The notes under the pieces: model-generated
The model's input: only the letters and a program-made list of their open reading frames with translations
Databases searched by the model: none
Told to the model about the DNA's origin: nothing
Made by a program: the position numbers and the translations under genes
Shown: piece after piece, positions 10,348-39,500 of the stretch
Layout: the number at the start of each line of letters is the position of its first letter
How positions within the stretch are numbered: position 1 is the stretch's first letter
Assembly: GCA_019828595.1 (NCBI GenBank)
Contig: JAHQRK010000009.1
Span: 2,108,001 to 2,172,000 of the forward strand
DNA length: 64,000 nucleotides
Direction of reading: 5' to 3'
Origin: Aphanomyces cochlioides
Taxonomy: Eukaryota > Oomycota > Saprolegniomycetes > Saprolegniales > Verrucalvaceae

Positions 10348-10767
10348 ATGCGCGCCACCTTCCTCGGTCTAGCCCTTGCCGCTGTCGTCTTCCTCGCTGG
10401 AGAGACTGCCGCTGTCCACTCCCCTGCTGGTCATTCACTATCCCAAGAGTCGGCCTATTCTTCGCCGGTCCAACACCTCGGTGGCCGCGAGTACCCCAGC
10501 GAGCACGCGGATTCTCGCGGGTCCAAACGTCACCGTTCGTCGTCCAGCCTATTTGGTGATCGCCATGCGCCAGTCCACGAAAATGGCAACCCCTATTCGT
10601 TGTCTCGACGTTCTCGTGGTCACAATCCGTCGTCCGGCCAATTTAGTGACCACCCTCGCTCGCGTCGTGCGACCCGCCAAAAGTTCAGATTTAAAAAGCT
10701 CTTCCGTGTTGCGAGAAGCTTTATTCCAATTCGCCGTCTGAACGACATGGATGAGACGATGAATTAA
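10348..10767 (+). CDS. Small secreted cationic-helix precursor (gene A)
   Basis: A 139-residue protein. The upstream in-frame ATG at 10279 was rejected because the ATG at 10348 gives a clean signal peptide (MRATFLGLALAAVVFLAGET, cleavage near Ala22) and lies 12 bp after the core promoter. After the signal comes a Ser/His/Arg-rich pro-region (residues 23-107) containing two imperfect copies of a unit with SS(S/G)xF(G/S)D. Residues 108-111 are ATRQ, the junction motif shared with its paralogues, followed by KFRFKKLFRVARSFIPIRRL, a strongly cationic amphipathic helix, and a short acidic end. By analogy, cleavage after Arg110 would free a helix of about 20 residues. A role as antimicrobial-like peptide or effector is inferred. 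It is the only intact member in the left half. Confidence 0.8.
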   Translation: MRATFLGLALAAVVFLAGETAAVHSPAGHSLSQESAYSSPVQHLGGREYPSEHADSRGSKRHRSSSSLFGDRHAPVHENGNPYSLSRRSRGHNPSSGQFSDHPRSRRATRQKFRFKKLFRVARSFIPIRRLNDMDETMN

Positions 10768-11969
10768 CCATGACAAGAAGTCTCCATCAGTCAAATCAAC
10801 ATGGACATTCCATCCATTACGATTGCCTATAGCTGAGATGTAATTCGTTATACATGTCCTTTGAAAACGAGAGAACATTGCTCCACCTTCCAAGATTGCA
10901 TCCTTCCTGATCCGTTCTTATCAAGACATCCACGAGTCTATAGGGGTGACTGAATGGGAAACCTACAAATTGGCTTTGCTGTTCTTTGAGACAACTTTAG
11001 AGTTCCGATTCCTCTGTGTATCTTTGAAGTCGGCTGCACTTTAAGACATGCCAAGGTGGTGTCAAACATGGACCTGCAAGTCCTCAAGCATTGTCCAAAT
11101 GGCTGAAGGGCATTTGATATGCAACCTGATATTATGATAACAGCATTTGGACTTGCGAGACAGAGAATGGCACGTAAGTAGATCACGCTGAGTTCCAAAC
11201 TGAGGATCGAAACATATCTGCATCACAACGGCTAGGGATAACCAGTACGTTACCGTAGGGTCATGATAAAACTGCTGCCTTGTACGTGACTGCAATACTG
11301 TATGTTCACTGATTCTCGTAATTGGTTTCAGCTGTGCATGCAGACTAGACCGAGATGATAACACAACAGGGGCAGAGTAAGATATAGCGCTGAACACAAC
11401 AAGCGAATTCATCCAAGGAATTCTCGAATAGAGTTGTCAACTAGCCTATCATATATTTAAGCACTATAAATGCTGAGAGTTTGCGATCACAGTGGGGGTC
11501 GAGATAGCAAAGCAATCTTCGTGGAGGTTGATTCGAACACGAGAATCGTCTGCAGCATGTCTTTGAAGACCATTGTCTGGTGAAATGTAAAAATAGAAAA
11601 GAGGTTGCGCTTGCAATGTTGTCATAAATGTTATGGCAACCTCAAACGAGCAGATCATGTAAAAAAGTCGATCGAGCACAAACAGTAGTGTGGATCAGCT
11701 CAGGCAGGAAACATGGCGCCATTGTGCTTGCACGGAATAATTTGTGTTGCAGTCGTAATGTGAGATTTCAATTCAAGCTAATTGCCTGGTTTGGAGAAGA
11801 GTCGCGTGCTTACTGTTAATCAACTGAAAGCATACGTTCCTGTCTTCATGGACCAAGTTGTTTATGAATAGCCTTAATGGTAAAATCTTTTACTTCAATT
11901 GAATCATTTCAGCGGAAGATTGTGACACATTCTTGTCGACAGAAGGAGCTTGAGCTTCATAGCATCGAC
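10768..11969. other. No gene seen
   Basis: Only short overlapping frames with no recognisable motif; no repeats noticed. Confidence 0.45.
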
Positions 11970-12313
11970 CTATTCGTCATTATTTTCAAGACGACGGAAT
12001 CCGAGTAGACCTTTTCCGATTTTCGCGACGACTTGGAAACCTTTCTTGATCCCATGGCCAATCTTTTGGAAGAACTTCTTGAAACTTTGACGGGTCGCAG
12101 GACGTAGCGGCGGCTGTGCAATCTCAACAACAACTGGGCGCTCTTTATTGTCCTTTGGCGTGTACACAAGAGTTTCAGCTTCAAATTTATCCTGGCTAGC
12201 GCGGTTGGCGTCGAGAGTGCTTTGTTCACCACGAAGGTGGGGCGAATGGTTTGCCGAGACAAATCCGACAGCGAACAGAGCAATGCAGAGAAAACAAGCG
12301 TCGTTGATCGCAT
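11970..12313 (-). pseudogene. Small secreted cationic-helix precursor, frameshifted in the signal peptide (gene B)
   Basis: The start (12313) reads MRSTTLVFSALLC, a typical family signal start, but the rest of the signal peptide and the mature part continue in another frame that ends at 11970. A one-base indel at about 12275-12290 explains this; there is no room for an intron. The second frame encodes the end of a hydrophobic signal, a polar pro-region, ATRQ, then SFKKFFQKIGHGIKKGFQ and VVAKIGKGLLGFRRL, a Lys/Gly-rich amphipathic helix much like cationic host-defence peptides. The core-promoter-like TCATTTCCGAACTTTCCG lies just upstream. It may be a recent pseudogene or a sequencing error. 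Confidence 0.7.
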
Positions 12314-12320
12314 CTTGAGA

Positions 12321-12338
12321 CGGAAAGTTCGGAAATGA
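12321..12338 (-). promoter_or_regulatory. Inr-FPR-like core promoter of gene B
   Basis: On the minus strand TCATTTCCGAACTTTCCG lies 7 bp before the ATG, matching Inr then FPR. Confidence 0.45.
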
Positions 12339-12589
12339 ATCGAAAACTACGATCTCCCCGACACATCCTCGGTGTCAATTACAATGCAACAAGGAACGCT
12401 TAACGAAAAACGAAACTTGTCAAACGGAACAACCACAGAGTTTATGGTTGATAACAGCAGTTTGAAGATATCCCAGTAATAAGTTGGAGATTTCTTTGCT
12501 TGATGGAATTTCATTAGCAAGTTGAGATTGATCGGTAGGTTACATGTCAAGCTGGATATTGACAGCTTGGCATCAACGCCAGATGCAAA

Positions 12590-13400: not shown

Positions 13401-13854
13401 AAATCAGCTTGAACTTACTTGCTGGGATTCCATCAACGACAAAGATTGCAGCCAGTTCGACCCATATCCTAGTCACACCATATCATTTCACGAATCGCTG
13501 CATAAGAAACAGTCGGCTGCGGTGCCATAGTGTCACAACAGGACACGCGCGCAATTCCATTGCGTACGATGTTGTAAGGTGACTGACTATCCAATGCCTT
13601 TGCCTGATGCTGCATGTATCGCTACGAATGACACTGTCGCCAGCCAGATAGACATTCGATACACTACACTTCCTAGTCCTCTCGTTGCCTGTCGTGAGAT
13701 TGACTATCATGCAGTGAATCTATTCCAAATACTTTCCAAATGGATTACTAACCTCTTGAACTGTTTCGGGAGTCTCATCACCACATCATCGGACACATTC
13801 TAAAAATAGATTAGGCTGACCAATCAGCGACAGGTTTTGGCCGTGGATCTGACT
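13401..13854. other. No gene seen
   Basis: A 74-residue frame (13579-13803, plus) overlaps another on the minus strand; neither is recognisable. Confidence 0.4.
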
Positions 13855-14009: not shown

Positions 14010-14018
14010 CGGCACATA

Positions 14019-15570: not shown

Positions 15571-15624
15571 TATTTTTTTCCTCCCGCTTATTGCTGAGCC
15601 TGACAGATAATTATCCGAAATGTA

Positions 15625-17182
15625 CAGTGCGCGCCACAGCATTGCAGCCACCATGATTGCCGTGATTAGGATAGGCCGATGCAGCTTTGAGTAATCTGCG
15701 ACTATTTGAAGCTGAATGAAACATCACTACAACATACAAACTCGCGACCAAAGAGTCATTCAACAACGCATGAGTGATTTACTGCAAATTTAGATGAATA
15801 ACATGCGACGGAGCATTGCAGCCACTGAAAATTTTGATGCAAGACAAATGTAAATTGTATTCAAATTATCATCTAATAGTTGATTACACTACCTTTGCCC
15901 TTGAGGACTGCCACACAACGCTTAGGCATTGATGAAATCAATTTGTCGAGATAGTTTTGGTCGATTTGAGACCACGCAAATTTCACTGCTCGAATAAGCT
16001 CGTTTCTCGACGAGTACTGTTTACCATTCTCGTAAACTTTCCTCGCCATCAATCCCCAGACATTTTCGATTGGATTCAAGTCTGGGGAGAGTGCGGGATG
16101 GTCAAATAGCTCAACGCCTTGGTCGTTCAAAAACTTGATAGTGGTCTTGGCGCGGTGGATCGAGGCTCCATCTTGCTTAAACACAAAATTACGACCATAT
16201 ACTGAATGACCAAATGGAAATAAGTGGTCACTCAGTGTATGGACGTAATCGTCAGCGTCTTGGTTGCCTTCCAAAATCGCCAATTCGGCTTTTCCATGGC
16301 CCGAAAAGGCACCCCATACCATCACACTCTGTCCACCGTTGGCACGGGAGAAAAACGACTCCGGGGCCTTCCGAAGATCATGCCAATAGTACTTTAGACC
16401 ATCGGGTCCGTCGAGATTGAACTTTTTCTCGTCAGACCAGATGATCTGAGTCCAATTGACATGATCCTCGAGGTTGCGGCTGGCATAGTTGACTCGTTCA
16501 ATCTTGTGTCTTGGGAGTAGACTTGGTGTGCTCTTGCGCTTCAAGTACTTGAGGAACCCTGCCGCCAGCATCCGACGCTGGCACGTCCGCACCGATCCCT
16601 CCAACTTAAGAGTTGAGTGAAGGCTCCGTGCAGACGCGCCAGTGTTGGATGCTTCGCGGTACAGCTTCCGGCACTCTCGACCGACAATTTTTGTGAGCTT
16701 TCTTCCTTGAAACTTGCGCCCATATCGCTCAGGATTCTTCAAATATGCTCGAATCGTGTCCTTGTTACGGCCCATCTCTTTGGCGATGGCCCGATAGGAC
16801 ATTCCAAAGCGATGAAACGTCGCAATCGAGGCTCGCTCTTCAACGGTCAGTCTTGGCTGGCTTCCCATTCTAGTGATGCCGTTGTAGTGTTTGACAGTCA
16901 GAGTAGATCTTACTGTAGCTATTGCAACACCTTTGAGTTCACAACGAGGTGTATTATCGCGATATGACGCTGATTTTGAAGTGACCTGCAATGCTCTGAC
17001 GCACGGTATTGCCTGCAAATATTCATTTTCATGACACTCCGCCATGATTGGGGGGATATTTGAAGCTCAAACTATTCCGCCAATCATGTACATGCATTTC
17101 GCGATCATTGCGAGGGGCGACATAGGAGTGGTGGAATTTTTGTGTCGAATATAAGGTGGCTGCAATGCTGTGGCGCGCACTG
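15625..17182 (-). mobile_element. Tc1-like element with perfect terminal repeats
   Basis: A 1,558-bp element with identical 28-bp terminal inverted repeats (CAGTGCGCGCCACAGCATTG then CAGCCACC) and TA on both sides (15623-15624, 17183-17184). It carries one uninterrupted transposase. Perfect ends and an open frame indicate recent, possibly still competent, insertion. It lies 55 bp from the neighbouring Tc1 copy. Confidence 0.9.
15873..16868 (-). CDS. Tc1-family transposase, intact DD34E
   Basis: A 331-residue transposase, the usual Tc1 length, which cuts and re-joins element ends at TA sites. I start it at 16868 (MGSQPRLTVEERASIATFHR), because the 59 residues before it in the open frame are outside the family pattern. 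Residues 8-45 form the first paired-like helix-turn-helix (RFGMSYRAIAKEMGRNKDTI); a second DNA-binding helix set follows to about 120. The catalytic triad is Asp146 (IIWSDEKKF), Asp233 (FKQDGASIH) and Glu268 (SPDLNPIENVWG), with 34 residues between the second Asp and Glu, hence DD34E. The usual QDNA is QDGA here, which may lower activity. No frameshift or stop is seen. Confidence 0.9.
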   Translation of the reverse strand: MGSQPRLTVEERASIATFHRFGMSYRAIAKEMGRNKDTIRAYLKNPERYGRKFQGRKLTKIVGRECRKLYREASNTGASARSLHSTLKLEGSVRTCQRRMLAAGFLKYLKRKSTPSLLPRHKIERVNYASRNLEDHVNWTQIIWSDEKKFNLDGPDGLKYYWHDLRKAPESFFSRANGGQSVMVWGAFSGHGKAELAILEGNQDADDYVHTLSDHLFPFGHSVYGRNFVFKQDGASIHRAKTTIKFLNDQGVELFDHPALSPDLNPIENVWGLMARKVYENGKQYSSRNELIRAVKFAWSQIDQNYLDKLISSMPKRCVAVLKGKGSVINY

Positions 17183-26095: not shown

Positions 26096-26398
26096 ATGGC
26101 GATCATATTTGGTTTCGTAACGCCCGACATGGATATCGAGCTTGTCCCGCGCAGTGCTCGTCGTCAGAACTGGTTCAAGAATGCCTACAACAAGGTCAGT
26201 CCGTGGGCTGGTCCAGTCATTGGAGCTGGCATGGGAGCCTACAACGTGTACAAGAACGGCAAGACCCTCTATGGCTTGGCGACGGGTCGCAAGCTCCGCG
26301 AGATGGCAAACACGAAGACCATCCAGCAGGTCGACGATTCGCCAGTTGTTGCTGATGGAGCTGCTCGCCAACTTCGTGGTGCCAACTACGTGGAATAG
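26096..26398 (+). pseudogene. Promoterless, signal-less duplicate of gene K C-terminus (locus E)
   Basis: The open frame begins in unrelated sequence (MAIIFGFVTPDMDIELVP) and enters the duplicated segment at RSARRQNWFKNAYNKV, then continues to RQLRGANYVE as in genes F and K. There is no signal peptide, no pro-region and no core-promoter motif, so it is most likely a partial duplicate rather than a working gene. A cytosolic fusion product cannot be excluded. Confidence 0.65.
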
Positions 26399-26478
26399 CT
26401 TCCTCAGGTGAATCGTGTGTGTTTGCATAACTCTGGTGGAGAGATAATCCATTTTCTTTTGTGTTAAGCTGAGTTGAC
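26149..26478 (+). repeat. 330-bp extra copy of the 3' part of gene K
   Basis: Identical over 330 bp to 35485-35814 and to the reverse complement of 33363-33692. It covers the second helix module, the C-terminus and about 80 bp of 3' flank. Confidence 0.9.
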
Positions 26479-26826: not shown

Positions 26827-27561
26827 CTATTCGACGTAGTTGGCTCCACGGAGCTGACGCGACGTTTCACTCATCACGGGCGCATCTTGGAGCTGCTTGA
26901 TGTTCGTCGTCATCGTTCCTTCCATCTCGCGGAGCTTACGACCCTTGGCGAGGTCGTAGATCGCCTTGCCGTTCTTGTAGACGTTGTAGGCTCCCATGCC
27001 AGCACCAATGACTGGTCCAGCCCACGGACTGACCTTGTTGTAGGCATTCTTGAACCAGTTCTGACGACGGGCACTACGCTTGCTCAAACCATTCTTGTAT
27101 CGACGACGGTTGCGGCGATTGCTACGAATGCGGCGAGGACGGGGAGCGACTTGTTCGTTGGTTTGGGGATGTTCCCCGTCGGTGAGTTCCTTCTCACGGA
27201 GACCGCGTCCCTTGACCATGTTGTAAATCGTCTTGCCGTTCGAGTACACCTTGTAGGCTCCCATACTCGCACCGATGACTGGTCCAGCCCAGGGTTTGAC
27301 CTTGTCGTAGGTATTCTTGAACCAATTTTGACGACGAGCGTACTTGGCAGCGTATCGATTGTATCGTCGGTTGGATCGACGACGACGGGGGACAACTTGG
27401 CCGTAGGTTTCATGTGGTTGGGCTGAGTCAATGTCTTGATTGTCGACTTGGTCGTTGGATTCGTCGGTGGAGGCAGCAGCTTTTTCATGTTGTTGATTCG
27501 CCGACACGGAGGTGGCCGCGAGGAGGGCAAGGAAGGGAAGGACGAGGGTCGTGAATCGCAT
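26827..27561 (-). CDS. Secreted two-module cationic-helix precursor (gene F)
   Basis: A 244-residue protein: signal peptide 1-21 (MRFTTLVLPFLALLAATSVS), acidic/Gln-rich pro-region 22-58, an Arg-rich stretch 59-72, junction AKYARRQ (Arg77-Gln78), helix module 1 (NWFKNTYDKVKPWAGPVIGA then a Gly/Tyr segment SMGAYKVYSNGK) ending GRGLRE at about 123; acidic linker 124-138; second Arg-rich stretch 141-156; junction KRSARRQ (Arg166-Gln167); module 2 with the same order ending GRKLREM; C-terminus RQLRGANYVE. Acidic spacers alternate with basic modules as in multi-peptide precursors. Processing after the Arg pairs and a membrane-active role are inferences. Its leader has TCATTCTCGAATT close to the ATG. 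Intact. Confidence 0.85.
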   Translation of the reverse strand: MRFTTLVLPFLALLAATSVSANQQHEKAAASTDESNDQVDNQDIDSAQPHETYGQVVPRRRRSNRRYNRYAAKYARRQNWFKNTYDKVKPWAGPVIGASMGAYKVYSNGKTIYNMVKGRGLREKELTDGEHPQTNEQVAPRPRRIRSNRRNRRRYKNGLSKRSARRQNWFKNAYNKVSPWAGPVIGAGMGAYNVYKNGKAIYDLAKGRKLREMEGTMTTNIKQLQDAPVMSETSRQLRGANYVE

Positions 27562-27722: not shown

Positions 27723-28554
27723 CCACCAGGCTTCCCATTCACAATAAAGAGGATGGGCAACTTTCTTCCTATATAATTGTCAGGCTAACTTCACGAACAT
27801 CTCACAATCAGCTCGAATTGTCAGCACAGCAGTCAGGCGATCCGAATGCTTCTCGGATTTGTCCACCTTCGATGAGCCACCAACTTCTAACCAGATTCGA
27901 CGTGGCGGCATGTCATAGTAATAAAGTTGTATCCTGTAGTCTCAGATTTCTTGTTCGACATGTATCGTTCCAACCATTCATTATGATGACATTTGATCCA
28001 GTTCGCCATGTGGGCAGACGTCAGGATGTGCTCGCCACGGCGGGTATCTTTCATGAATGTCAAAAGATCGGGTCCAAAGGGGATGGATTCACTGCGTCCT
28101 TGCCCGCCCAAAGTGAGAGCCCGACGAGATACCGGTCGTGACGTGTAGGCGTCATACTTTTTGAGCCAACCCATGAAGGTTTGTCGCGGGACATATTGTT
28201 CGAGACAGAAGCGCTTGGCATTTGGGACGGCCATGGCGCGGTATAGATCCATGAGATGAATAGTCGGTCGCGTATAAAGTAGCGTCGATAAGAGGTAGGT
28301 CGAAGGATGGGAGAACGCTTTGGCTTCATTACAAAGTTAACCATACCATCTTGAAGAATGATATCCTGTATGGACTCCTCCAAAATGTACTGATCGGCAC
28401 AATGCTTTGAGCAGCACGCTTGGTCGTAGGGCGGTTGAACGGATACCTGGTCGAGATATTCGTTCGAGCACAGGTGATGGGCTAAGTCATCGCACATCAG
28501 GCAGCATCGACTCGTCGTTATTGAAGGACAGTTGGCAAATCCACACAGCATCAT
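27723..28554 (-). pseudogene. pogo-type transposase, 5' half only (left arm)
   Basis: Mirror of 40623-41454. It has the Cys-rich N-terminal frame (28554-28060), the helix-turn-helix frame (28252-27887) and the start of the catalytic part, and is cut off at the arm edge after the GKPGG motif. It lacks the catalytic Asp residues. Confidence 0.7.
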
Positions 28555-28782
28555 GGAATATTGGATAATGTTTCGCTAACACTGAACGAGCGTCGAGATT
28601 GCGCGGGAAACTGCATCCAGTAAGATTGCTTAGATTTGTGTCACTTGTTTCTCCAATCAAAATGTTTTGCCCAATTTTCTTTGCATATTGATTGGCGGGA
28701 TTTTTCTCCTCTAGGATTGGATAATATTCGTATAAAATTGAATGATTAATGTGCTTGGAGAATTTAAAAAATATGCGATGTC

Positions 28783-28816
28783 CTACTGTGCCGAATTTTC
28801 ACGGCGTTATCTGTAG
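28783..28816 (-). repeat. 34-bp repeat, pogo-end-like (left arm)
   Basis: Mirror of 40361-40394; see that entry. Confidence 0.5.
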
Positions 28817-28987
28817 TCTCCATATTGCCATTACCTGGTATTCCCAATGTCAAGGAACCGCTAACGTTACCCTTTCTTGAGCTCGCATAAGATAAAAATA
28901 TTGAGCTGGTGGCTCGACTACGGCCATGTGAGCATACTATAAGCAAAATGAAGGAAAACAGTGTCAGAGCACGAAGTTACTTTAATA

Positions 28988-29384
28988 CTTCCTCTGTTCC
29001 ACATTACTGTGTACAAATCACTTTACATCGACCCCAAAAATCTATTTCTTTTCTAAATTCGATGGCGGATATCATTTTTTAAAGACCATAAAAAACTGCA
29101 GGAAATTGCCTTGGCTGGCAGGAGCAGAAAGTGAGTTTTCGTGGTCAAAATCGGCGGCGAATGCATCCATGTAGCCAGGCTAAGGATTTATGACCAATGA
29201 AATCTAATAAACCATATTTCGAGCCAATCATAACTTAAGAATTTATGACCAATGAAAGAAATCATAATGATTTATGACCAATGAAATCAAATGAAAAATA
29301 TTTCGAGCCAATCATAACTATTTGTACATAGGTTGTGGAAAAGTGTGTTTTCGATTTGTACACAGTAATGTGGAACAGAGGAAG
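28988..29384. repeat. Stowaway-like MITE (left arm)
   Basis: A 397-bp noncoding unit with inverted ends of about 32 bp (CTTCCTCTGTTCCACATTAC then TGTGTACAAATC) and TA on each side. The CTTCCTCTGTTCC start resembles Stowaway/mariner MITE ends. Inside, ATTTATGACCAATGAAA and TATTTCGAGCCAATCATAAC are repeated two or three times. Confidence 0.75.
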
Positions 29385-29676
29385 TACTTGCTTAAAGGTC
29401 ACACGAAAAATGGATTACTCGATAGAAAAGCACCCAATATATGGTGATCGTTATCAATCCTTCCGATTATTCAAAGCTGGAGGCTCCCTAAACTGCTCTC
29501 GATAAAGTCGTTAAAGGCGATATGAGTCACTTCACTCTGCGAGGCTGAGGTCGTCAGAGGTTTTGCACGTGTATGGATCCTATGAATGCGATCTATAACC
29601 ACGAACTCATGAAGTTTCAATAAAAACAAGCAAATTTGCATTATAACTGTGGGTAAGTCATCCAAATAGACAAAGT

Positions 29677-30186
29677 TTATTCGTCGTCGTCGTCATGGTT
29701 GCGCAGACCACGGCCAAAGAATCCACGGGCTTGGCTCACGAGGCCTTGACCTTGTTGGATCACTCCAGCTGCTTCTTGGCCCATACCAACGACTCGTTGG
29801 GCGACGTTGAGTCCCTTTTGGACGTGGTGGCCCACTCGCTGTCCAACTTGCTTGACACGTTGCCATCCCGAACGAAGGCGATTTCCAAGCTTCTTGAAAA
29901 AGTTCTGGCGAGTTGCCTTTCGCTGACTTCCAAGTCCCTTGCCATGATGTCTCTTGGATGCAATTCCATGGCTTGCAAAGGCCTTGCTTCCCAATGCATA
30001 GCCTCCATGTCCCTTCAAGCCTCCCTTGCGTTTAGGACGGCGGGGGACTGGTTGGTGTTCGCTGGATTCGTCACCACCGTGGGCCGCGATGGCAGCTCGG
30101 CGGGCATATTGAGGATGCAAACTGGCTTCCGTCGTCACAAAGACTGCTGCAAGCAAGACAAGGAGGGCAAACACAATCGATCGCAT
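29677..30186 (-). CDS. Secreted cationic-helix precursor (gene G, left copy)
   Basis: A 169-residue protein identical to that at 38991-39500. Signal peptide 1-21 (MRSIVFALLVLLAAVFVTTE); pro-region rich in His, Gly and Lys (22-89) with further basic pairs at 29-30, 49-50 and 79; junction KATRQ (Arg93-Gln94); then a long amphipathic segment, NFFKKLGNRLRSGWQRVKQV and onward through VGHHVQKGLNVAQRVVGMGQ, ending GFFGRGLRN and an Asp/Glu tail. The mature part (about 75 residues) has hydrophobic residues at 3-4 spacing and is Gln/Gly/Arg-rich. Inr-FPR motif at 30197-30212. Function inferred from the family layout. Confidence 0.85.
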   Translation of the reverse strand: MRSIVFALLVLLAAVFVTTEASLHPQYARRAAIAAHGGDESSEHQPVPRRPKRKGGLKGHGGYALGSKAFASHGIASKRHHGKGLGSQRKATRQNFFKKLGNRLRSGWQRVKQVGQRVGHHVQKGLNVAQRVVGMGQEAAGVIQQGQGLVSQARGFFGRGLRNHDDDDE

Positions 30187-30196
30187 TGTTCAAGTC

Positions 30197-30212
30197 GCCA
30201 ATTTGAAAATGA
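30197..30212 (-). promoter_or_regulatory. Inr-FPR-like core promoter of gene G (left copy)
   Basis: TCATTTTCAAATTGGC, 10 bp before the ATG; an exact mirror of the right copy. Confidence 0.55.
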
Positions 30213-31167
30213 GATCGTGGACAGCAGCAAGTTCCATAGGGGGGATCACGAGAGGCAACCAAGACGATGCGCGAATTCGGACCAAAGGTAGAGGAAGCAG
30301 CATATAAAGTCTAAATCTTTTATGCCCTTAGTCTTGTCGTCGTTGTCTGTTCGAAATGGTGAGACTTGAACCATGGATAACATTATATAATATATTTTAT
30401 TTTTCATACAAATAGCAAGATATAACATCACATTTATTATAATATTTTCACCTGACCTTTTGATTGTCTCGTCGCTCCTGCGTTGTCGTCGCAGTTGTCA
30501 CGTGGTAAAGTCACTAAGTACGACTTGTCTCGCCTTCTATCCTTCATTCAGACACTGAAGTTCAAGATTGTCCAGCCCTCGTGGCAATATGCCGTCATTG
30601 CACGCCCCTTTCAAACGTCTTTTGTATATTTTGAAGTGTTTTGAAGCAAATTCTAGCCTTGAAAATGGCGTTGAGCGACGATGTTATGTAGTTTTACTCG
30701 AAAGCAGAGAATATCGAGCGCGAACTTTTCCGCACTCACTGGCGAGGGCAAGATATGGAGTCGCCAGTGGAGAAAGGACTCTTTTGTCGTGAATCGTTTC
30801 GTCTGTCGTGGCATCGGGAACAACTTTGAATCTGTATATGGGAACGAACAGACAACTCGACCAAGAGTTGAAAACCTTTTTCGGAAAAATGTGCAGTTGG
30901 TCCAAACGTATCAACCAGAAAGGCTGCCTTCTCGGGCGAAACTCAGTCGCACCGCAATGCCAAATTGATTGCAGAATGACTCGACTACGGGCGTTTGGAG
31001 TGGATAAGTCTGCACTTCTTGGGTCGATTCTCAATGATGAGGTGGTTGCAGTCAAACTGGTGTGGAGCGTCATGATGTTCACAATGGAATTTCCACTCAC
31101 TCGACGACATGATCTGTGAAATAGACGGTAGATTACTCTCGCTTTAGCCAAGTTGTCCTATCTTTGT
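30213..31167. other. Intergenic region in left arm
   Basis: No gene; the 155-residue frame at 30684-31151 lacks any supporting feature. The mirror is 38010-38964. Confidence 0.45.
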
Positions 31168-31425
31168 CTACTCGGCATCGATTTGAATGAGTTTGCGGTG
31201 GCCCCAGTGATTCTTGGCCATGCCATAGATGGCTGTACCGACTTTGATCGCACCGAGGGCGGTTCCAACGGAAAACATTTGCTTCTTGGCTTTCTTGCCC
31301 TTTTGGACGTAGACGACTTCGCCTTCAGGCTGTTCTTTGTCGTCGCATTGGCGGTGATGCTTGGCCTCGGAGAAAACCAACAAGACGACGAGGAGGCAGG
31401 CAACGAAGACGGAAGTGGCGCGCAT
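31168..31425 (-). CDS. Small secreted KAKKQ peptide precursor (gene H, left copy)
   Basis: An 85-residue protein identical to 37752-38009. I start at the second Met (MRATSVFVACLLVVLLVFSE), which begins the signal peptide and follows the core promoter; the first Met would put 12 polar residues in front. After the signal come KHHRQ, an acidic pro-region with PEGEVVYVQ, basic GKKAKK, then Gln49 and a Gly-rich hydrophobic helix (MFSVGTALGAIKVGTAIYGM), ending NHWGHRKL and an acidic tail. Its layout matches genes I and J. It has one Cys (residue 27), so no internal disulfide. Confidence 0.85.
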   Translation of the reverse strand: MRATSVFVACLLVVLLVFSEAKHHRQCDDKEQPEGEVVYVQKGKKAKKQMFSVGTALGAIKVGTAIYGMAKNHWGHRKLIQIDAE

Positions 31426-31432
31426 CGCGTTT

Positions 31433-31449
31433 GGTAAATTGGAAAATGG
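31433..31449 (-). promoter_or_regulatory. Inr-FPR-like core promoter of gene H (left copy)
   Basis: CCATTTTCCAATTTACC, 7 bp before the ATG. Confidence 0.5.
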
Positions 31450-31950
31450 TTTGCCGGGCACTAGACCCGTTCTAGCTCAATCTACAACCAAACAGCTCAT
31501 TGTGAGCGCCATCCGCGGCGTCGTGGAATGGCAGGGTTGCGCTTCTTGACATTTGAATTACGTCAACGGTTGTCGATCGTTGGAAAAAACTAGCCAAGCA
31601 ACAGTCAATCCTTGACGACAGCACCAACTTGCGGATGCACTGCAGTGATCAAGTGCCTCTATAGATCGACAATGCCACGTCTTGTCGTGACGAAGATAGC
31701 TTGATTCGATGTACTGCTCCTGGAGTGTACCCGGAGTTTGTTGAAAGATTTCAACGAAAATAGTATCACAGGAGGTCTCGGTCAATGGCTTGTGATATTC
31801 CATTGTCTGGACTGCGCTACTGTCGTTTTGGAATCATCGCGTTCGCGCTTTCCTCTCCACTCCTTATGATACCAAAGTTGATGGGATATCAACGACAACT
31901 TGGCAGTCAAACCTCCCTTCTTTATTGGACCGCCCGGCATCCTAAACTAA

Positions 31951-32205
31951 CTACTCTTCATTGATTTCGACAAGCTTGCGCTTGCCCCAGTTCTTTGCCA
32001 TGCCGTAGATGGCAGTGCCAACCTTAACGGCGCCGAGAGCTGCTCCAATTGGAAACATTTCACGCTTGGCTTTCTTGCCTCGTTGGACATAGACGGCTTC
32101 ACCTTCAGGTTGCTCTCGCTCGTCCTATTGGGGATGATGCTTAGCTTCAGTGACGATGAAGAAGACGACAAGAAGACATGCTAACAAGACAGACGTGGCG
32201 CGCAT
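31951..32205 (-). pseudogene. Small secreted peptide precursor with premature stop (gene I, left copy)
   Basis: Exact mirror of 36972-37226. The signal peptide is intact, but a TAG at 32125-32127 (codon 27) ends translation just after HHPQ. The same frame then continues through the family pro-region, KKAKRE, the Gly-rich helix and GKRKL. The junction Gln of the paralogues is Glu here. Confidence 0.8.
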
Positions 32206-32767
32206 CAATTGATGGAAAATTCTCTGACTTTACACCAGACTTTTAAGTTAATGTGGCTTTCTGCTCCTAACAAGCCCATGACGATTGTTAACTGCATCCT
32301 TACGACGTCGAGGTATGCATCGACGAGCTCCTTACTTGCCCCATTCTACTGTGGTTGATTGTGGACTTGGGCAAGTGACAGTCGGACTGGAATTGTCGTT
32401 GTATTGTGCCACGGCCAAGACGTCGCAGTTGTGGACAAAGTTGATCGCAGTTCATGCATTTTTCACGACTTGAGCGGATCTGGAGACTAGATGAACTCGC
32501 TACGACAGTAATTTCAAAGTAATCGCTGCAGTGATACATTGGAACTTATGTACTTGGAGAGTTGATCATGCGCTACAATCTTCCTCCTGAACAATCAACA
32601 ACGCATAGGACTATCTGCTCATTCAACAACACATTCCACGACGCTGGGACTTTTACTCGAAATGTTGCCAGAGTTCAATTTGCTTGCGCATTGTAACATG
32701 ATGAGATATGCTAATCGCGATAGTTTCTGTTGATAACTACGTCGCAGTATTCAATTTACAAAGTCTC
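32206..32767. other. Intergenic region in left arm
   Basis: No gene seen; the mirror is 36410-36971. Confidence 0.45.
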
Positions 32768-33025
32768 ATGCGCGGTGCTTCAATCTTCTTTGCGTACCTC
32801 ATCGTCCTCGTCTTTGTCTTCACTGAGGCCAAGCACCACCGTCAAGATGACGACCAAGAAAAACCTGAAGGCGAAGTCGTCTACGTCCAACGGGGAAAGA
32901 AAGCCAAGCGTCAAATGTTCCCGATTGGAGCGGTGCTTGGAGGAATCAAGGTCGGCACTGCTCTCTATGGCCTCGCCAAGAACTACTGGGGGAAGCGCAA
33001 ACTCGTGGAAATCGATGGGGAATAG
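32768..33025 (+). CDS. Small secreted KAKRQ peptide precursor (gene J, left copy)
   Basis: An 85-residue protein identical to 36152-36409. The start at 32768 gives signal peptide MRGASIFFAYLIVLVFVFTE; the 20 residues before it in the open frame are not signal-like. Then KHHRQ, acidic pro-region (DDDQEKPEGEVVYVQ), RGKKAKR, Gln49, and a Gly-rich helix MFPIGAVLGGIKVGTALYGL ending NYWGKRKL with an acidic tail. It is transcribed towards gene K in the same arm. Its leader has only a weak ATTCAATTTAC motif. Confidence 0.85.
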   Translation: MRGASIFFAYLIVLVFVFTEAKHHRQDDDQEKPEGEVVYVQRGKKAKRQMFPIGAVLGGIKVGTALYGLAKNYWGKRKLVEIDGE

Positions 33026-33442
33026 ACAGATACCCATTAATCTGTTAATTCGATGCATGTTATGATCAAAACTTGGATTGCTCAAGCACTGGCAAGTCCT
33101 GAAGATTTGTCCCCCAACATGTTGGTGGTGCGTCAAGTTTTCCTCTTTGTGTTTCAGATGACGAGTACAGCAATGCAATTGTCTTTTGATGGAGCAGGAC
33201 ATTGCAAACAACTCTAACATGCAACCAAAGACAGGAGTGCGGAGTTCATAGCCCACCAATCTTGGAGTGGTTGGGATATGATTTATGCCCATTGGTGCTT
33301 CAACACGGTCTAGCTGCCATTCATTCGCATCGATAAGTTGTGCTTTGTAACACAAACTGTCAGTCAACTCAGCTTAACACAAAAGAAAATGGATTATCTC
33401 TCCACCAGAGTTATGCAAACACACACGATTCACCTGAGGAAG
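33026..33442. other. Intergenic region between convergent genes J and K (left arm)
   Basis: Holds the 3' flanks of both genes; the overlapping 195-residue frame on the minus strand is a shadow. The mirror is 35735-36151. Confidence 0.5.
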
Positions 33443-34105
33443 CTATTCCACGTAGTTGGCACCACGAAGTTGGCGAGCAGCTCCATCAGCAACAACTGGC
33501 GAATCGTCGACCTGCTGGATGGTCTTCGTGTTTGCCATCTCGCGGAGCTTGCGACCCGTCGCCAAGCCATAGAGGGTCTTGCCGTTCTTGTACACGTTGT
33601 AGGCTCCCATGCCAGCTCCAATGACTGGACCAGCCCACGGACTGACCTTGTTGTAGGCATTCTTGAACCAGTTCTGACGACGAGCACTGCGCTTGTTCAG
33701 TCCGTACTGGTTGCCACGACGACGGCGGTGGCGGCGCGGACGAGGAGCCACTTCGTCGGTGGATTCAGGTTGCTCGGACATCTGCGATTGTTCCTTCAAG
33801 CGACGACCTCGAAGCCACTTGGAGGCTCTGTATGCTCCCAAGCCAAGACTGATCGCCGTCTGGACGCCAGGCTTTTGGGCAAAGTTCTTGACCGTATTGA
33901 ATGTATTCTTGAGCCAATTTTGTCGACGGGCGTACTTGGGTGGGTAGCGAGCAGTGCGAGGATCATATTGGCCATACTCTTGGCTGTCGAGAGGTTGGTC
34001 CGACTGCTCGTATGAGGCGACGTGTTGGCGATGGTGTTTTTTCGCCGACGCACAGGTGGCAGCAAAGAGAGCAAAGCAGACGAGCACGAAGGATGTGAAT
34101 CGCAT
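33443..34105 (-). CDS. Secreted two-module cationic-helix precursor (gene K, left copy)
   Basis: A 220-residue protein identical to 35072-35734 and about the same layout as gene F. Signal peptide 1-21 (MRFTSFVLVCFALFAATCAS); His/Gln/Asp pro-region; junction KYARRQ (Arg61-Gln62); module 1 NWLKNTFNTVKNFAQKPGVQ then TAISLGLGAYRASKWLRGRR; acidic linker; Arg-rich 122-130; junction KRSARRQ (Arg143-Gln144); module 2 NWFKNAYNKVSPWAGPVIGA then GMGAYNVYKNGK, ending GRKLREM; C-terminus RQLRGANYVE. This copy keeps only 27 bp of the original upstream sequence, so its Inr is replaced by spacer sequence and expression may differ from the right copy. Confidence 0.85.
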   Translation of the reverse strand: MRFTSFVLVCFALFAATCASAKKHHRQHVASYEQSDQPLDSQEYGQYDPRTARYPPKYARRQNWLKNTFNTVKNFAQKPGVQTAISLGLGAYRASKWLRGRRLKEQSQMSEQPESTDEVAPRPRRHRRRRGNQYGLNKRSARRQNWFKNAYNKVSPWAGPVIGAGMGAYNVYKNGKTLYGLATGRKLREMANTKTIQQVDDSPVVADGAARQLRGANYVE

Positions 34106-34132
34106 GCGGACTTGGAGCTCGAGGGCAAATTC

Positions 34133-35044
34133 GACAATGGAGTGAACCTAGCTCGTTGAACTTTTCTTGGGAAGAAGGAAGCAGACGCCTTCATATCCGT
34201 TGTTGTCACGAAGTTGAGTGTGTGTAACTGATGGTTGAGATTGAACATCGGCTGTTGATTGTTCATGGAGATCGTGGTCGGTTTTGACTTCGAAAGAGAA
34301 GTCAAGACGTCGACAAGTCGCAATGAAAAGACGTGAGAGGGAGAGGAAGCCTCTCGTGGTCATCGAAATGTGCTCTCTCAAACGATGCCGTGTTGGGGCG
34401 AAATATTTTGAGCATTCTTGATAGAAGATATGAATAAACGAACGAGGGTGGTCATGGATAGACGATCAAACTAGCGATGGAGGTAGCTGTGTAATGAACA
34501 ATGAACTAAAAGAGGATGCTCCTTGGTAGGTTGTCTGCTGCTCAATTGTAAGGTTATGTAGGTTCAAAATATACATGGCCATACCAAATCACGATTCACC
34601 ACCAAAATGCGTGAATCTGTAGGCGTCAGACATTTCCACAGAAACTCTTTTCTTTGTATCGAGATAAAAGAGGCTCCAGCATCCATTTCATGAAGCACAT
34701 GTCTGGTTCGTCCAAGGTGACAAACAGCGGGATTGAACAATTGTCCGTTGTATTCCACGAAGGTTCTTCTTCAGAGTCCTTGAGATGTTGTCCATGGCGT
34801 TTTTGTCAACTCCAAGACCAGAGTGCGATACACTACTGCACAATCAATGATTCTATCTTCGAGTTTGTATGGCCTTAAAGTTGAAAATTGACCAGAACAC
34901 GCGGTACAATCACAAAGCACGCACTTGACGCTCAATTTTCAACCATCGAAACGGAAAACATGGACTCTTCAGCCTCTTCGTAAGAGTCTCTCCTATGATC
35001 GTAATCGATAAAGCATGCTCATGAGGTTGAGTTTTCTCATTCTT
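34133..35044. other. 912-bp unique spacer between the arms
   Basis: No supported gene. It contains the 5' flanks of the two divergent copies of gene K, which therefore differ in upstream sequence. The right copy keeps a complete Inr-FPR motif (35037-35053). Confidence 0.7.
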
Positions 35045-35053
35045 GAATTTGCC
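35037..35053 (+). promoter_or_regulatory. Inr-FPR-like core promoter of gene K (right copy)
   Basis: TCATTCTTGAATTTGCC, 18 bp before the ATG. The Inr part (35037-35043) lies outside the duplicated arm, so the left copy of K lacks it. Confidence 0.55.
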
Positions 35054-35071
35054 CTCGAGCTCCAAGTCCGC

Positions 35072-35734
35072 ATGCGATTCACATCCTTCGTGCTCGTCTG
35101 CTTTGCTCTCTTTGCTGCCACCTGTGCGTCGGCGAAAAAACACCATCGCCAACACGTCGCCTCATACGAGCAGTCGGACCAACCTCTCGACAGCCAAGAG
35201 TATGGCCAATATGATCCTCGCACTGCTCGCTACCCACCCAAGTACGCCCGTCGACAAAATTGGCTCAAGAATACATTCAATACGGTCAAGAACTTTGCCC
35301 AAAAGCCTGGCGTCCAGACGGCGATCAGTCTTGGCTTGGGAGCATACAGAGCCTCCAAGTGGCTTCGAGGTCGTCGCTTGAAGGAACAATCGCAGATGTC
35401 CGAGCAACCTGAATCCACCGACGAAGTGGCTCCTCGTCCGCGCCGCCACCGCCGTCGTCGTGGCAACCAGTACGGACTGAACAAGCGCAGTGCTCGTCGT
35501 CAGAACTGGTTCAAGAATGCCTACAACAAGGTCAGTCCGTGGGCTGGTCCAGTCATTGGAGCTGGCATGGGAGCCTACAACGTGTACAAGAACGGCAAGA
35601 CCCTCTATGGCTTGGCGACGGGTCGCAAGCTCCGCGAGATGGCAAACACGAAGACCATCCAGCAGGTCGACGATTCGCCAGTTGTTGCTGATGGAGCTGC
35701 TCGCCAACTTCGTGGTGCCAACTACGTGGAATAG
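35072..35734 (+). CDS. Secreted two-module cationic-helix precursor (gene K, right copy)
   Basis: The protein is identical to the left copy (see 33443-34105 for domains). The start at 35072 follows a complete Inr-FPR motif; the open frame extends 19 codons further up, but that part (MLMRLSFLILEFALELQVR) lies before the promoter motif and crosses the arm boundary. This copy is the better candidate for the ancestral, expressed gene. The second module also occurs at 26149-26398. Confidence 0.85.
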   Translation: MRFTSFVLVCFALFAATCASAKKHHRQHVASYEQSDQPLDSQEYGQYDPRTARYPPKYARRQNWLKNTFNTVKNFAQKPGVQTAISLGLGAYRASKWLRGRRLKEQSQMSEQPESTDEVAPRPRRHRRRRGNQYGLNKRSARRQNWFKNAYNKVSPWAGPVIGAGMGAYNVYKNGKTLYGLATGRKLREMANTKTIQQVDDSPVVADGAARQLRGANYVE

Positions 35735-36151
35735 CTTCCTCAGGTGAATCGTGTGTGTTTGCATAACTCTGGTGGAGAGATAATCCATTTTCTTTTGTGT
35801 TAAGCTGAGTTGACTGACAGTTTGTGTTACAAAGCACAACTTATCGATGCGAATGAATGGCAGCTAGACCGTGTTGAAGCACCAATGGGCATAAATCATA
35901 TCCCAACCACTCCAAGATTGGTGGGCTATGAACTCCGCACTCCTGTCTTTGGTTGCATGTTAGAGTTGTTTGCAATGTCCTGCTCCATCAAAAGACAATT
36001 GCATTGCTGTACTCGTCATCTGAAACACAAAGAGGAAAACTTGACGCACCACCAACATGTTGGGGGACAAATCTTCAGGACTTGCCAGTGCTTGAGCAAT
36101 CCAAGTTTTGATCATAACATGCATCGAATTAACAGATTAATGGGTATCTGT
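35735..36151. other. Intergenic region between convergent genes K and J (right arm)
   Basis: Mirror of 33026-33442; no gene. Confidence 0.5.
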
Positions 36152-36409
36152 CTATTCCCCATCGATTTCCACGAGTTTGCGCTTCCCCCAGTAGTTCTTG
36201 GCGAGGCCATAGAGAGCAGTGCCGACCTTGATTCCTCCAAGCACCGCTCCAATCGGGAACATTTGACGCTTGGCTTTCTTTCCCCGTTGGACGTAGACGA
36301 CTTCGCCTTCAGGTTTTTCTTGGTCGTCATCTTGACGGTGGTGCTTGGCCTCAGTGAAGACAAAGACGAGGACGATGAGGTACGCAAAGAAGATTGAAGC
36401 ACCGCGCAT
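36152..36409 (-). CDS. Small secreted KAKRQ peptide precursor (gene J, right copy)
   Basis: The 85-residue protein is identical to 32768-33025: signal peptide 1-21, acidic PEGEVVYVQ pro-region, GKKAKR then Gln49, Gly-rich helix, GKRKL and acidic tail. It converges on gene K of the same arm. Being wholly inside the arm, both copies have the same promoter region. Confidence 0.85.
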   Translation of the reverse strand: MRGASIFFAYLIVLVFVFTEAKHHRQDDDQEKPEGEVVYVQRGKKAKRQMFPIGAVLGGIKVGTALYGLAKNYWGKRKLVEIDGE

Positions 36410-36971
36410 GAGACTTTGTAAATTGAATACTGCGACGTAGTTATCAACAGAAACTATCGCGATTAGCATATCTCATCATGTTACAATGCGCAAGCAAATT
36501 GAACTCTGGCAACATTTCGAGTAAAAGTCCCAGCGTCGTGGAATGTGTTGTTGAATGAGCAGATAGTCCTATGCGTTGTTGATTGTTCAGGAGGAAGATT
36601 GTAGCGCATGATCAACTCTCCAAGTACATAAGTTCCAATGTATCACTGCAGCGATTACTTTGAAATTACTGTCGTAGCGAGTTCATCTAGTCTCCAGATC
36701 CGCTCAAGTCGTGAAAAATGCATGAACTGCGATCAACTTTGTCCACAACTGCGACGTCTTGGCCGTGGCACAATACAACGACAATTCCAGTCCGACTGTC
36801 ACTTGCCCAAGTCCACAATCAACCACAGTAGAATGGGGCAAGTAAGGAGCTCGTCGATGCATACCTCGACGTCGTAAGGATGCAGTTAACAATCGTCATG
36901 GGCTTGTTAGGAGCAGAAAGCCACATTAACTTAAAAGTCTGGTGTAAAGTCAGAGAATTTTCCATCAATTG
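36410..36971. other. Intergenic region in right arm
   Basis: Mirror of 32206-32767; no gene seen. Confidence 0.45.
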
Positions 36972-37226
36972 ATGCGCGCCACGTCTGTCTTGTTAGCATG
37001 TCTTCTTGTCGTCTTCTTCATCGTCACTGAAGCTAAGCATCATCCCCAATAGGACGAGCGAGAGCAACCTGAAGGTGAAGCCGTCTATGTCCAACGAGGC
37101 AAGAAAGCCAAGCGTGAAATGTTTCCAATTGGAGCAGCTCTCGGCGCCGTTAAGGTTGGCACTGCCATCTACGGCATGGCAAAGAACTGGGGCAAGCGCA
37201 AGCTTGTCGAAATCAATGAAGAGTAG
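36972..37226 (+). pseudogene. Small secreted peptide precursor with premature stop (gene I, right copy)
   Basis: Starts MRATSVLLACLLVVFFIVTE, a good signal peptide, then KHHPQ and a TAG stop at 37050-37052. The same frame continues to 37226 with EQPEGEAVYVQ, RGKKAKRE, MFPIGAALGAVKVGTAIYGM and NWGKRKL, all family features. Length (85 codons) is exactly that of genes H and J. Only the nonsense codon breaks it. The conserved junction Gln is Glu. Confidence 0.8.
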
Positions 37227-37727
37227 TTAGTTTAGGATGCCGGGCGGTCCAATAAAGAAGGGAGGTTTGACTGCCAAGTTGTCGTTGATATCCCATCAAC
37301 TTTGGTATCATAAGGAGTGGAGAGGAAAGCGCGAACGCGATGATTCCAAAACGACAGTAGCGCAGTCCAGACAATGGAATATCACAAGCCATTGACCGAG
37401 ACCTCCTGTGATACTATTTTCGTTGAAATCTTTCAACAAACTCCGGGTACACTCCAGGAGCAGTACATCGAATCAAGCTATCTTCGTCACGACAAGACGT
37501 GGCATTGTCGATCTATAGAGGCACTTGATCACTGCAGTGCATCCGCAAGTTGGTGCTGTCGTCAAGGATTGACTGTTGCTTGGCTAGTTTTTTCCAACGA
37601 TCGACAACCGTTGACGTAATTCAAATGTCAAGAAGCGCAACCCTGCCATTCCACGACGCCGCGGATGGCGCTCACAATGAGCTGTTTGGTTGTAGATTGA
37701 GCTAGAACGGGTCTAGTGCCCGGCAAA

Positions 37728-37744
37728 CCATTTTCCAATTTACC
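37728..37744 (+). promoter_or_regulatory. Inr-FPR-like core promoter of gene H (right copy)
   Basis: CCATTTTCCAATTTACC, 7 bp before the ATG. Confidence 0.5.
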
Positions 37745-37751
37745 AAACGCG

Positions 37752-38009
37752 ATGCGCGCCACTTCCGTCTTCGTTGCCTGCCTCCTCGTCGTCTTGTTGG
37801 TTTTCTCCGAGGCCAAGCATCACCGCCAATGCGACGACAAAGAACAGCCTGAAGGCGAAGTCGTCTACGTCCAAAAGGGCAAGAAAGCCAAGAAGCAAAT
37901 GTTTTCCGTTGGAACCGCCCTCGGTGCGATCAAAGTCGGTACAGCCATCTATGGCATGGCCAAGAATCACTGGGGCCACCGCAAACTCATTCAAATCGAT
38001 GCCGAGTAG
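37752..38009 (+). CDS. Small secreted KAKKQ peptide precursor (gene H, right copy)
   Basis: Identical to 31168-31425. An 85-residue preproprotein with signal peptide, acidic pro-region, GKKAKK then Gln49, Gly-rich hydrophobic helix and GHRKL end. It follows pseudogene I in the same direction, about 525 bp downstream, and the two look like a tandem duplication older than the inverted one. Confidence 0.85.
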   Translation: MRATSVFVACLLVVLLVFSEAKHHRQCDDKEQPEGEVVYVQKGKKAKKQMFSVGTALGAIKVGTAIYGMAKNHWGHRKLIQIDAE

Positions 38010-38964
38010 ACAAAGATAGGACAACTTGGCTAAAGCGAGAGTAATCTACCGTCTATTTCACAGATCATGTCGTCGAGTGAGTGGAAATTCCATTGTGAAC
38101 ATCATGACGCTCCACACCAGTTTGACTGCAACCACCTCATCATTGAGAATCGACCCAAGAAGTGCAGACTTATCCACTCCAAACGCCCGTAGTCGAGTCA
38201 TTCTGCAATCAATTTGGCATTGCGGTGCGACTGAGTTTCGCCCGAGAAGGCAGCCTTTCTGGTTGATACGTTTGGACCAACTGCACATTTTTCCGAAAAA
38301 GGTTTTCAACTCTTGGTCGAGTTGTCTGTTCGTTCCCATATACAGATTCAAAGTTGTTCCCGATGCCACGACAGACGAAACGATTCACGACAAAAGAGTC
38401 CTTTCTCCACTGGCGACTCCATATCTTGCCCTCGCCAGTGAGTGCGGAAAAGTTCGCGCTCGATATTCTCTGCTTTCGAGTAAAACTACATAACATCGTC
38501 GCTCAACGCCATTTTCAAGGCTAGAATTTGCTTCAAAACACTTCAAAATATACAAAAGACGTTTGAAAGGGGCGTGCAATGACGGCATATTGCCACGAGG
38601 GCTGGACAATCTTGAACTTCAGTGTCTGAATGAAGGATAGAAGGCGAGACAAGTCGTACTTAGTGACTTTACCACGTGACAACTGCGACGACAACGCAGG
38701 AGCGACGAGACAATCAAAAGGTCAGGTGAAAATATTATAATAAATGTGATGTTATATCTTGCTATTTGTATGAAAAATAAAATATATTATATAATGTTAT
38801 CCATGGTTCAAGTCTCACCATTTCGAACAGACAACGACGACAAGACTAAGGGCATAAAAGATTTAGACTTTATATGCTGCTTCCTCTACCTTTGGTCCGA
38901 ATTCGCGCATCGTCTTGGTTGCCTCTCGTGATCCCCCCTATGGAACTTGCTGCTGTCCACGATC
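38010..38964. other. Intergenic region in right arm
   Basis: Mirror of 30213-31167; no gene recognised. Confidence 0.45.
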
Positions 38965-38980
38965 TCATTTTCAAATTGGC
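38965..38980 (+). promoter_or_regulatory. Inr-FPR-like core promoter of gene G (right copy)
   Basis: TCATTTTCAAATTGGC, 10 bp before the ATG. Confidence 0.55.
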
Positions 38981-38990
38981 GACTTGAACA

Positions 38991-39500
38991 ATGCGATCGA
39001 TTGTGTTTGCCCTCCTTGTCTTGCTTGCAGCAGTCTTTGTGACGACGGAAGCCAGTTTGCATCCTCAATATGCCCGCCGAGCTGCCATCGCGGCCCACGG
39101 TGGTGACGAATCCAGCGAACACCAACCAGTCCCCCGCCGTCCTAAACGCAAGGGAGGCTTGAAGGGACATGGAGGCTATGCATTGGGAAGCAAGGCCTTT
39201 GCAAGCCATGGAATTGCATCCAAGAGACATCATGGCAAGGGACTTGGAAGTCAGCGAAAGGCAACTCGCCAGAACTTTTTCAAGAAGCTTGGAAATCGCC
39301 TTCGTTCGGGATGGCAACGTGTCAAGCAAGTTGGACAGCGAGTGGGCCACCACGTCCAAAAGGGACTCAACGTCGCCCAACGAGTCGTTGGTATGGGCCA
39401 AGAAGCAGCTGGAGTGATCCAACAAGGTCAAGGCCTCGTGAGCCAAGCCCGTGGATTCTTTGGCCGTGGTCTGCGCAACCATGACGACGACGACGAATAA
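38991..39500 (+). CDS. Secreted cationic-helix precursor (gene G, right copy)
   Basis: The protein is identical to 29677-30186: signal peptide, His/Gly/Lys pro-region, KATRQ junction at 90-94, about 75-residue amphipathic cationic segment and Asp-rich tail. The stop is followed by AT-rich sequence and a MITE 290 bp downstream. Confidence 0.85.
   Translation: MRSIVFALLVLLAAVFVTTEASLHPQYARRAAIAAHGGDESSEHQPVPRRPKRKGGLKGHGGYALGSKAFASHGIASKRHHGKGLGSQRKATRQNFFKKLGNRLRSGWQRVKQVGQRVGHHVQKGLNVAQRVVGMGQEAAGVIQQGQGLVSQARGFFGRGLRNHDDDDE

Follow-up and report, generated by a model that had tools for sequence, protein, structure and literature searches.

A clustered family of putative secreted peptide precursors with a strict A-x-R-Q junction in Aphanomyces cochlioides

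The window analysed here, a stretch of 64,000 nucleotides (nt) of contig C89 (C89:2108001-2172000) from the 76.2 Mb genome of Aphanomyces cochlioides, the agent of sugar beet root rot (PMC11653986), carries part of a cluster of small related genes whose products share one layout: a Met-Arg hydrophobic N-terminus, a variable polar region, an A-x-[RK]-Q junction, a cationic module free of Cys, and an R-x-L near the module end. This architecture is conserved across a family that has repeatedly duplicated, and we lean towards the view that these genes encode precursors of secreted peptides that would be cut within the junction, directly before its Gln. A first, sequence-only reading of the window had rightly assumed an oomycete origin and had proposed a secreted-precursor layout with a Met-Arg start and a polar pro-region; 16 intact precursors with lengths of 74-244 amino acids (aa) bear this layout out.

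All counts given below refer to these 16 intact, non-mirrored precursors, which comprise 18 modules; six of the precursors lie in the window and ten upstream, between 1.940 and 2.075 Mb of C89 (c1-c4, c6-c10 and c12). The locus letters A-K are those of the sequence-only reading, assigned to coordinates by our own mapping, and K corresponds to AC1031_021605 of A. cochlioides at 100% identity in a protein search. Members were sought among open reading frames (ORFs) with a basic, hydrophobic N-terminus in 262 kb of C89 (1910001-2172000) and in 20 kb around a second palindrome; those from beyond the window were chosen by eye among signal-bearing ORFs, with the junction visible in the list. Kept apart from the counts are the orphan copy E, the broken genes B, D and I, all mirror copies, a pair at 2245661/2254801, broken copies near 2024240 and 2026077, and a junction-less open frame near 2066296 of C89. 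Genome searches with K, G, H, c7, c2 and c12 gave matches confined to C89 between 1.940 and 2.256 Mb, and the resulting counts are lower bounds; a DNA pattern search was uninformative (997 matches, and 839 with a reversed-pattern control).

With positions named P4 to P1 before the putative cut and P1' behind it, Ala occupies P3 in all 18 modules, Arg occupies P1 in 17 (Lys in one), and Gln occupies P1' in 17 (Leu in one). The composition of P2 is free (R in eight modules, K in five, T in four, Q in one), and P4 is basic in 5/18. In 15 of the 16 proteins the junction is present and has F, W or M soon after it, whereas shuffling of the residues past position 20 gives 0.40 proteins on average and at most 4 in 5000 trials; this upholds the earlier claim of a conserved, cut-like junction. 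When each of nine subgroups is represented by a single member the junction is present in 9/9 (shuffle mean 0.23, maximum 4 in 20000). An alignment of 16 rows, made from 14 of the precursors (without F and K) and two proteins of Aphanomyces euteiches, has a mean column identity of 27%, and M1, R2, the junction Ala and the following Phe are its only invariant columns; columns conserved to at least 90% are the junction Arg and Gln, the R and L of the terminal mark, and one Val of the signal. Because members had been picked where the junction was visible, kinship was retested with the junction masked: BLASTP within the 16 proteins (E<=0.01) yields a group of 13 and a group of three (A, c10 and c12), unlinked to each other, and many of these links depend on the signal peptide.

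A second mark lies near the C-terminus. At least 15 residues past the junction, R-x-L occurs in 18/18 modules (shuffle mean 4.0, maximum 10), so that the ending R-[KR]-L originally described for most modules is part of a wider pattern. It stands 4-8 residues from the C-terminus in 14/16 proteins (shuffle mean 0.65, maximum 4), 13 of which end in Glu. In F and K the terminal R-x-L is a separate RQL past the linker tail. The end of K, RQLRGANYVE (33443-33475, minus strand), is shared without change by K, F and two of the four A. euteiches relatives aligned, and is near-identical in the other two; the preceding linker is variable. A further short, Gln-started product from this C-terminus of K (AAR/QLRGANYVE, the slash marking the putative cut) is conceivable; F has SRQ there.

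Two UniRef names (P0010 and P0019, 'RxLR effector protein') would place the family among the RXLR-type effectors that are translocated into host cells, and the R, K or N that follows R-x-L in 15/18 modules, with acidic residues behind it, is in keeping with these names. We nevertheless regard this as highly improbable and rejected membership on the position of the motif, which stands close to the C-terminus and not soon after the signal peptide. No Pfam profile, of the RXLR type or other, matched over its cut-off among the 16 alignment members and the six intact window precursors, which agrees with the initial impression that the family is not RXLR-like; RXLR effectors were, moreover, reported as undetected in A. 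euteiches and A. astaci (PMC5907361), and again in A. euteiches (PMC8780586). NCBIfam likewise gave no match over cut-off (F and K outside that scan), and PDB sequences contained no credible relative, with single-query rows at E 0.33 and 0.81 taken as chance.

The members and remnants of the family in the window, outside the mirrored copies, are the following:

10348-10767, plus strand: gene A, intact, 139 aa; SRRATR/QKFR, with ATRQ at residues 108-111; module QKFR...IRRL; tail NDMDETMN
11957-12313, minus strand: gene B, broken; Met-Arg start and ATRQ-helix segment (about 11973-12200) in separate frames
25525-25860, minus strand: gene D, broken; open frame 25702-25860 stops where the P1' Gln of the junction is expected
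26096-26398, plus strand: E, orphan copy of the second K module (ARRQ) after an unrelated N-terminus
26827-27561, minus strand: gene F, intact, 244 aa; ARRQ module twice; A. euteiches relative P0006
29677-30186, minus strand: gene G, intact, 169 aa; ATRQ at residues 91-94; long cationic helix; tail RNHDDDDE; A. euteiches relative P0014
31168-31425, minus strand: gene H, intact, 85 aa; AKKQ; Gly-rich module to RKL; tail IQIDAE; relatives P0017, P0019
31954-32205, minus strand: gene I, broken; in-frame TAG past the signal, upstream of an AKRE junction
32768-33025, plus strand: gene J, intact, 85 aa; AKRQ; module to RKL; tail VEIDGE; relatives P0013, P0015
33443-34105, minus strand: gene K (AC1031_021605), intact, 220 aa; ARRQ module twice; C-terminus ...AARQLRGANYVE

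Eight loci had been claimed at the outset, and six of them (A, F, G, H, J and K) are intact ORFs with the junction forms assigned to them: ATRQ in A and G, ARRQ twice each in F and K, AKKQ in H and AKRQ in J. The remaining two, B and D, are broken: the ATRQ segment of B exists but in another frame than the Met-Arg start, and the stop described for D at the junction Gln is there. Gene I has the Glu reported in place of Gln, and in addition the in-frame TAG upstream of it. The two modules of F and K are likewise real; the linker of K, in contrast to the description, is not simply acidic but acidic and then strongly arginine-rich. E shares 330 identical nt with K (26149-26478 and 33363-33692) and is included in the annotated protein P0007. 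The presence of broken copies next to intact genes suggests birth-and-death evolution.

All named homologs from three protein searches belong to A. cochlioides or A. euteiches. The family is thus known so far from two plant-pathogenic Aphanomyces species, and its presence may be wider, as one of the searches scored the best 8000 candidates by shared words and the method requires shared 5-residue words. Between the two species, P3, P1, P1' and R-x-L are identical in 10/10 pairs from six genes (A, F, G, H, J and c7), some genes being compared with two or three A. euteiches copies and F being scored for its first module only. P2 differs in 4/10 of the pairs (three of A, one of c7). Gene A, compared with its relatives P0020-P0022, keeps 5-7 of 17 residues of the core, against 3 of 3 in R-x-L. 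Orthologs that keep the helix and lose the junction had been named as the finding that would speak against processing, and the pairs display the opposite. K was left out of this comparison, as A. euteiches offers only fragments or altered models of it; among them, P0003-P0005 retain both junctions. The A. euteiches relatives of G, H and J (LEN26_001746, _001747 and _001748) are apparently adjacent, judged by locus numbers, and the arrangement would therefore predate the species split. In seven paralog pairs the part behind the junction, tail included, has a nonsynonymous divergence (dN) below the synonymous one (dS) in 7/7, with dS saturated in one, and dN is higher in the pro-region than behind the junction in 5/7, the reverse being true of H/J and c2/c3.

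The modules have a net charge of +4 to +15 and contain no Cys in 18/18 cases; Gly, Ala and aromatic residues abound in those of H, J, F and K, and the pro-region has no clear acidic character. In 8/18 modules, namely those of c1, c2, c3, c4, c7, c8, c9 and G, the maximum hydrophobic moment is higher than in shuffled versions (p<0.05). An AlphaFold2 model of G, built from two sequences and indicative only (mean per-residue confidence, pLDDT, 61), predicts a single helix at 87-162 that runs from the junction (91-94) to R-x-L (159-161), with block pLDDT values of 65-81 over 91-160. This helix bears on another explanation, that the proteins work uncut, their Arg/Lys-rich stretches serving as nuclear-localisation or nucleic-acid-binding signals and A-x-R-Q as a helix N-cap or docking site: the most conserved block behind the signal adjoins the predicted helix in G, long basic runs are present in K, F, c10 and c12, and AeSSP1254 and AeSSP1256, two small secreted proteins of A. 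euteiches, are nuclear in plant cells, the latter raising susceptibility (PMC5907361). On the other hand, a helix cap poorly explains why A-x-R-Q opens both modules of F and K, or why P3, P1 and P1' are strict and P2 is free, and H, J and A are without long basic runs past the junction. We consider the uncut alternative unlikely, if worth keeping in mind.

If the proteins are instead precursors, as we prefer, the signal peptide would send the prepropeptides into the secretory pathway, where an endoprotease specific for Arg and recognising A-x-[RK]-Q (P3 Ala, P1 Arg, P1' Gln, P2 free) would remove the polar pro-region. The peptide freed by the cut would be cationic and without Cys, about 20-70 residues long and in most cases helix-forming; F and K would each yield two such modules. 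The N-terminal Gln so freed can cyclise to pyroglutamate, and with two glutaminyl-cyclase-family loci in the A. cochlioides genome a pyroglutamate at the module N-terminus is possible. With its short, usually acidic tail, R-x-L would mark the end of the module, and trimming may take place there as well.

Kex2/furin-type proteases had been suggested as the enzyme, a suggestion that we put aside as doubtful. P2-P1 is dibasic in 13/18 modules, and the non-basic T or Q at P2 in the other five, together with the scarcity of basic residues at P4, fits these proteases poorly. The P-domain PF01483 gave 0 matches in a genome search, which is moderate evidence since an intron-split domain could escape and the control genomes were prokaryotic; the same genome has 48 matches to the subtilisin domain PF00082 and 19 to pepsin-type domains, several being pieces of one gene. 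In infected roots A. euteiches releases trypsins and subtilases, and most of its trypsin S1 genes show induction between days 1 and 9 (PMC10084794). An Arg-specific serine protease is therefore a reasonable candidate, and a trypsin- or subtilisin-like enzyme of this specificity appears to fit better than Kex2/furin.

A bolder version would make both marks cleavage sites, one at A-x-R/Q before the module and one at R-x-L behind it, this second site being cut after Leu by the type of protease that cuts RXLR effectors and the Plasmodium PEXEL motif. In Phytophthora infestans, cleavage of RXLR effectors precedes their secretion and falls, in the single mapped case, after Leu; the authors liken this to PEXEL, R-x-L-x-E/D/Q (PMC11754927). 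The corresponding R-x-L-x-[DEQ] fits 10/18 of our modules. A second RXLR within a structured region is left uncut (PMC11754927), which weighs against R-x-L cleavage here, as does the reported absence of RXLR effectors from A. euteiches and A. astaci, and the mark could equally act as a C-terminal tag for sorting or as a tail that neutralises charge. We rate the double cut as quite unlikely. If true, it would mean that a lineage reported to be without RXLR effectors uses R-x-L processing to excise membrane-active peptides capped with pyroglutamate, and would point to R-x-L cleavage as an older processing system of the secretory pathway, with a use beyond tagging for host delivery.

As for function, the composition of the modules makes membrane activity the most likely use, and as their most likely role we see an arsenal of secreted peptides directed at the membranes of root microbes or of host cells. 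As to the original proposal of membrane-active peptides, the cationic charge is there in all modules, and amphipathicity is uneven. Alternatively, the genes might encode precursors of signalling or mating peptides, resembling the Kex2-processed repeat proteins of fungi. F and K are indeed repeat precursors with basic cut sites, and peptides capped with pyroglutamate are common among signals. The repeats, however, occur in F and K only, the P-domain was undetected, and 16 diverse members with long cationic modules and broken copies alongside would better fit an antimicrobial or arms-race role. We think such a signalling role very unlikely.

Several points tell against secreted, processed precursors. 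Signal peptides were judged solely from a basic start and a hydrophobic stretch with a home-made score. One member has Leu at P1' (ARRL), and the open frame near C89:2066296, which matches the N-terminal third of c12 (E 0.0074), is without a junction; its inclusion would make it a second junction-less member and lower the junction count to 15/17. In c10 and c12 the C-terminus is exceptional, with long tails that are basic and not acidic, and the A. euteiches gene model P0002, a relative of K, is without the first junction. The dN/dS comparisons draw on few sites, and dS is saturated in one of the pairs. The hydrophobic moment is within the shuffle range in A, F, H, J, K, c6, c10 and c12, the structure model of G is modest overall, and that of K is unusable (mean pLDDT 43).

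Genes G, H, I, J and K are present twice in the window, in identical and non-independent copies, because they lie inside a perfect inverted repeat of 6.4 kb:

27723-34139: left arm of the inverted repeat, 6417 nt, 100%
35038-41454: right arm, perfect mirror of the left arm, behind a spacer of 898 nt
35072-35734, plus strand: mirror copy of K
36152-36409, minus strand: mirror copy of J
36972-37223, plus strand: mirror copy of the broken I
37752-38009, plus strand: mirror copy of H
38991-39500, plus strand: mirror copy of G

A second perfect inverted repeat follows about 100 kb downstream (C89:2243672-2257251; arms of 6454 nt, spacer 672 nt). Both of its arms carry stretches related to the F/K module with a differing open frame, and both palindromes, which lie within about 122 kb of C89, contain secreted-looking genes. 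Two perfect inverted repeats of about 6.4 kb so near each other on one contig, with short spacers and arms without mismatch, raise the possibility, in our view less likely than not, that the palindrome is an assembly artefact and that the window has a single G-K set; the apparently single G-H-J set of A. euteiches (LEN26_001746-001748, judged by locus numbers) points the same way. Non-mirrored sequence flanks both arms, though, and recent duplication or gene conversion would look identical. The matter concerns copy number only: the family is real either way, and an artefact would be compatible with any of the readings discussed above. The downstream palindrome also houses a second clustered, secreted-looking family (C89:2243858-2257065) with a start MSRSSLLLC..., four Cys past the signal and a Gly/Ala-rich middle.

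Other secreted-looking proteins and repetitive elements are found around the cluster. A signal-bearing protein of 196 aa (49095-49685, plus strand) has lysine-rich repeats (KVKDKVKSAYGKIKERVKG...), no A-x-R-Q junction, and a sub-threshold likeness to apolipoprotein and apolipophorin profiles; the N-terminal part of a shorter protein at 47159-47413 resembles it. At 45946-46293 (plus strand) a secreted-looking protein of 115 aa contains a run of about 31 Asp, and RELR at residues 45-48, the usual position in RXLR effectors. Mobile elements are represented by a 390-aa open frame that encodes Tc3/DDE_3 transposase domains (15873-17045, minus strand) and by a match to a Pol polyprotein beta-barrel domain, a retrotransposon piece near the cluster (5874-6677, plus strand). 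An inverted repeat of 399 nt (44322-44720 and 45088-45486; 96% complementary, 367 nt apart) is possibly a small hairpin element.

Among known systems, the precursors of animal cationic helical antimicrobial peptides have the same layout as that proposed for the family described here, with a signal, a pro-region, a basic cut site and a cationic helix. No sequence relation to them was found, and our family differs in that the pro-region is not clearly acidic, R-x-L is kept, and the part behind the junction is the slower-evolving one in 5/7 pairs. Candidalysin (Ece1 of Candida) is a membrane-active helix, in which it is like the modules that we propose. Fungal Kex2-processed repeat proteins are likewise secreted precursors from which cleavage at basic sites releases short peptides (PMC7329392). 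In contrast to these and to Ece1, 14/16 of the precursors here have a single module, the putative site is A-x-R/Q with a free P2 and not KR, RR or KK, the P-domain was undetected, and the organism is an oomycete. RXLR effectors share R-x-L followed by acidic residues, and in P. infestans they are cut after Leu; their motif, however, lies in a disordered region after the signal peptide (PMC11754927), whereas here it is near the C-terminus, behind the module.

The closest likeness is to the AeSSPs of A. euteiches, which are shorter than 300 aa, have a signal-like N-terminus, are free of domains and form clustered paralogs (PMC5907361, PMC8780586), and among the proteins of this species we found direct relatives. 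By size and lack of domains the family would fall within this known class. The difference is that a survey of five A. euteiches strains states that it defined no conserved pattern among AeSSPs (PMC8780586), whereas the present family has a two-part one. No paper on the A-x-R-Q/R-x-L motif or the family was found in the open-licence literature, judged by titles and abstract openings. The family is real, so far restricted to its lineage, and duplicating, and its combination of a strict junction with a C-terminal mark is undescribed in the literature examined. A. euteiches, the closest relative that has been studied, is reported to have 568 small secreted proteins without a functional domain (PMC8780586). 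A two-part motif that marks a family of processed peptides would give a search rule for them, and might connect the family with the R-x-L cleavage described in Phytophthora and Plasmodium.

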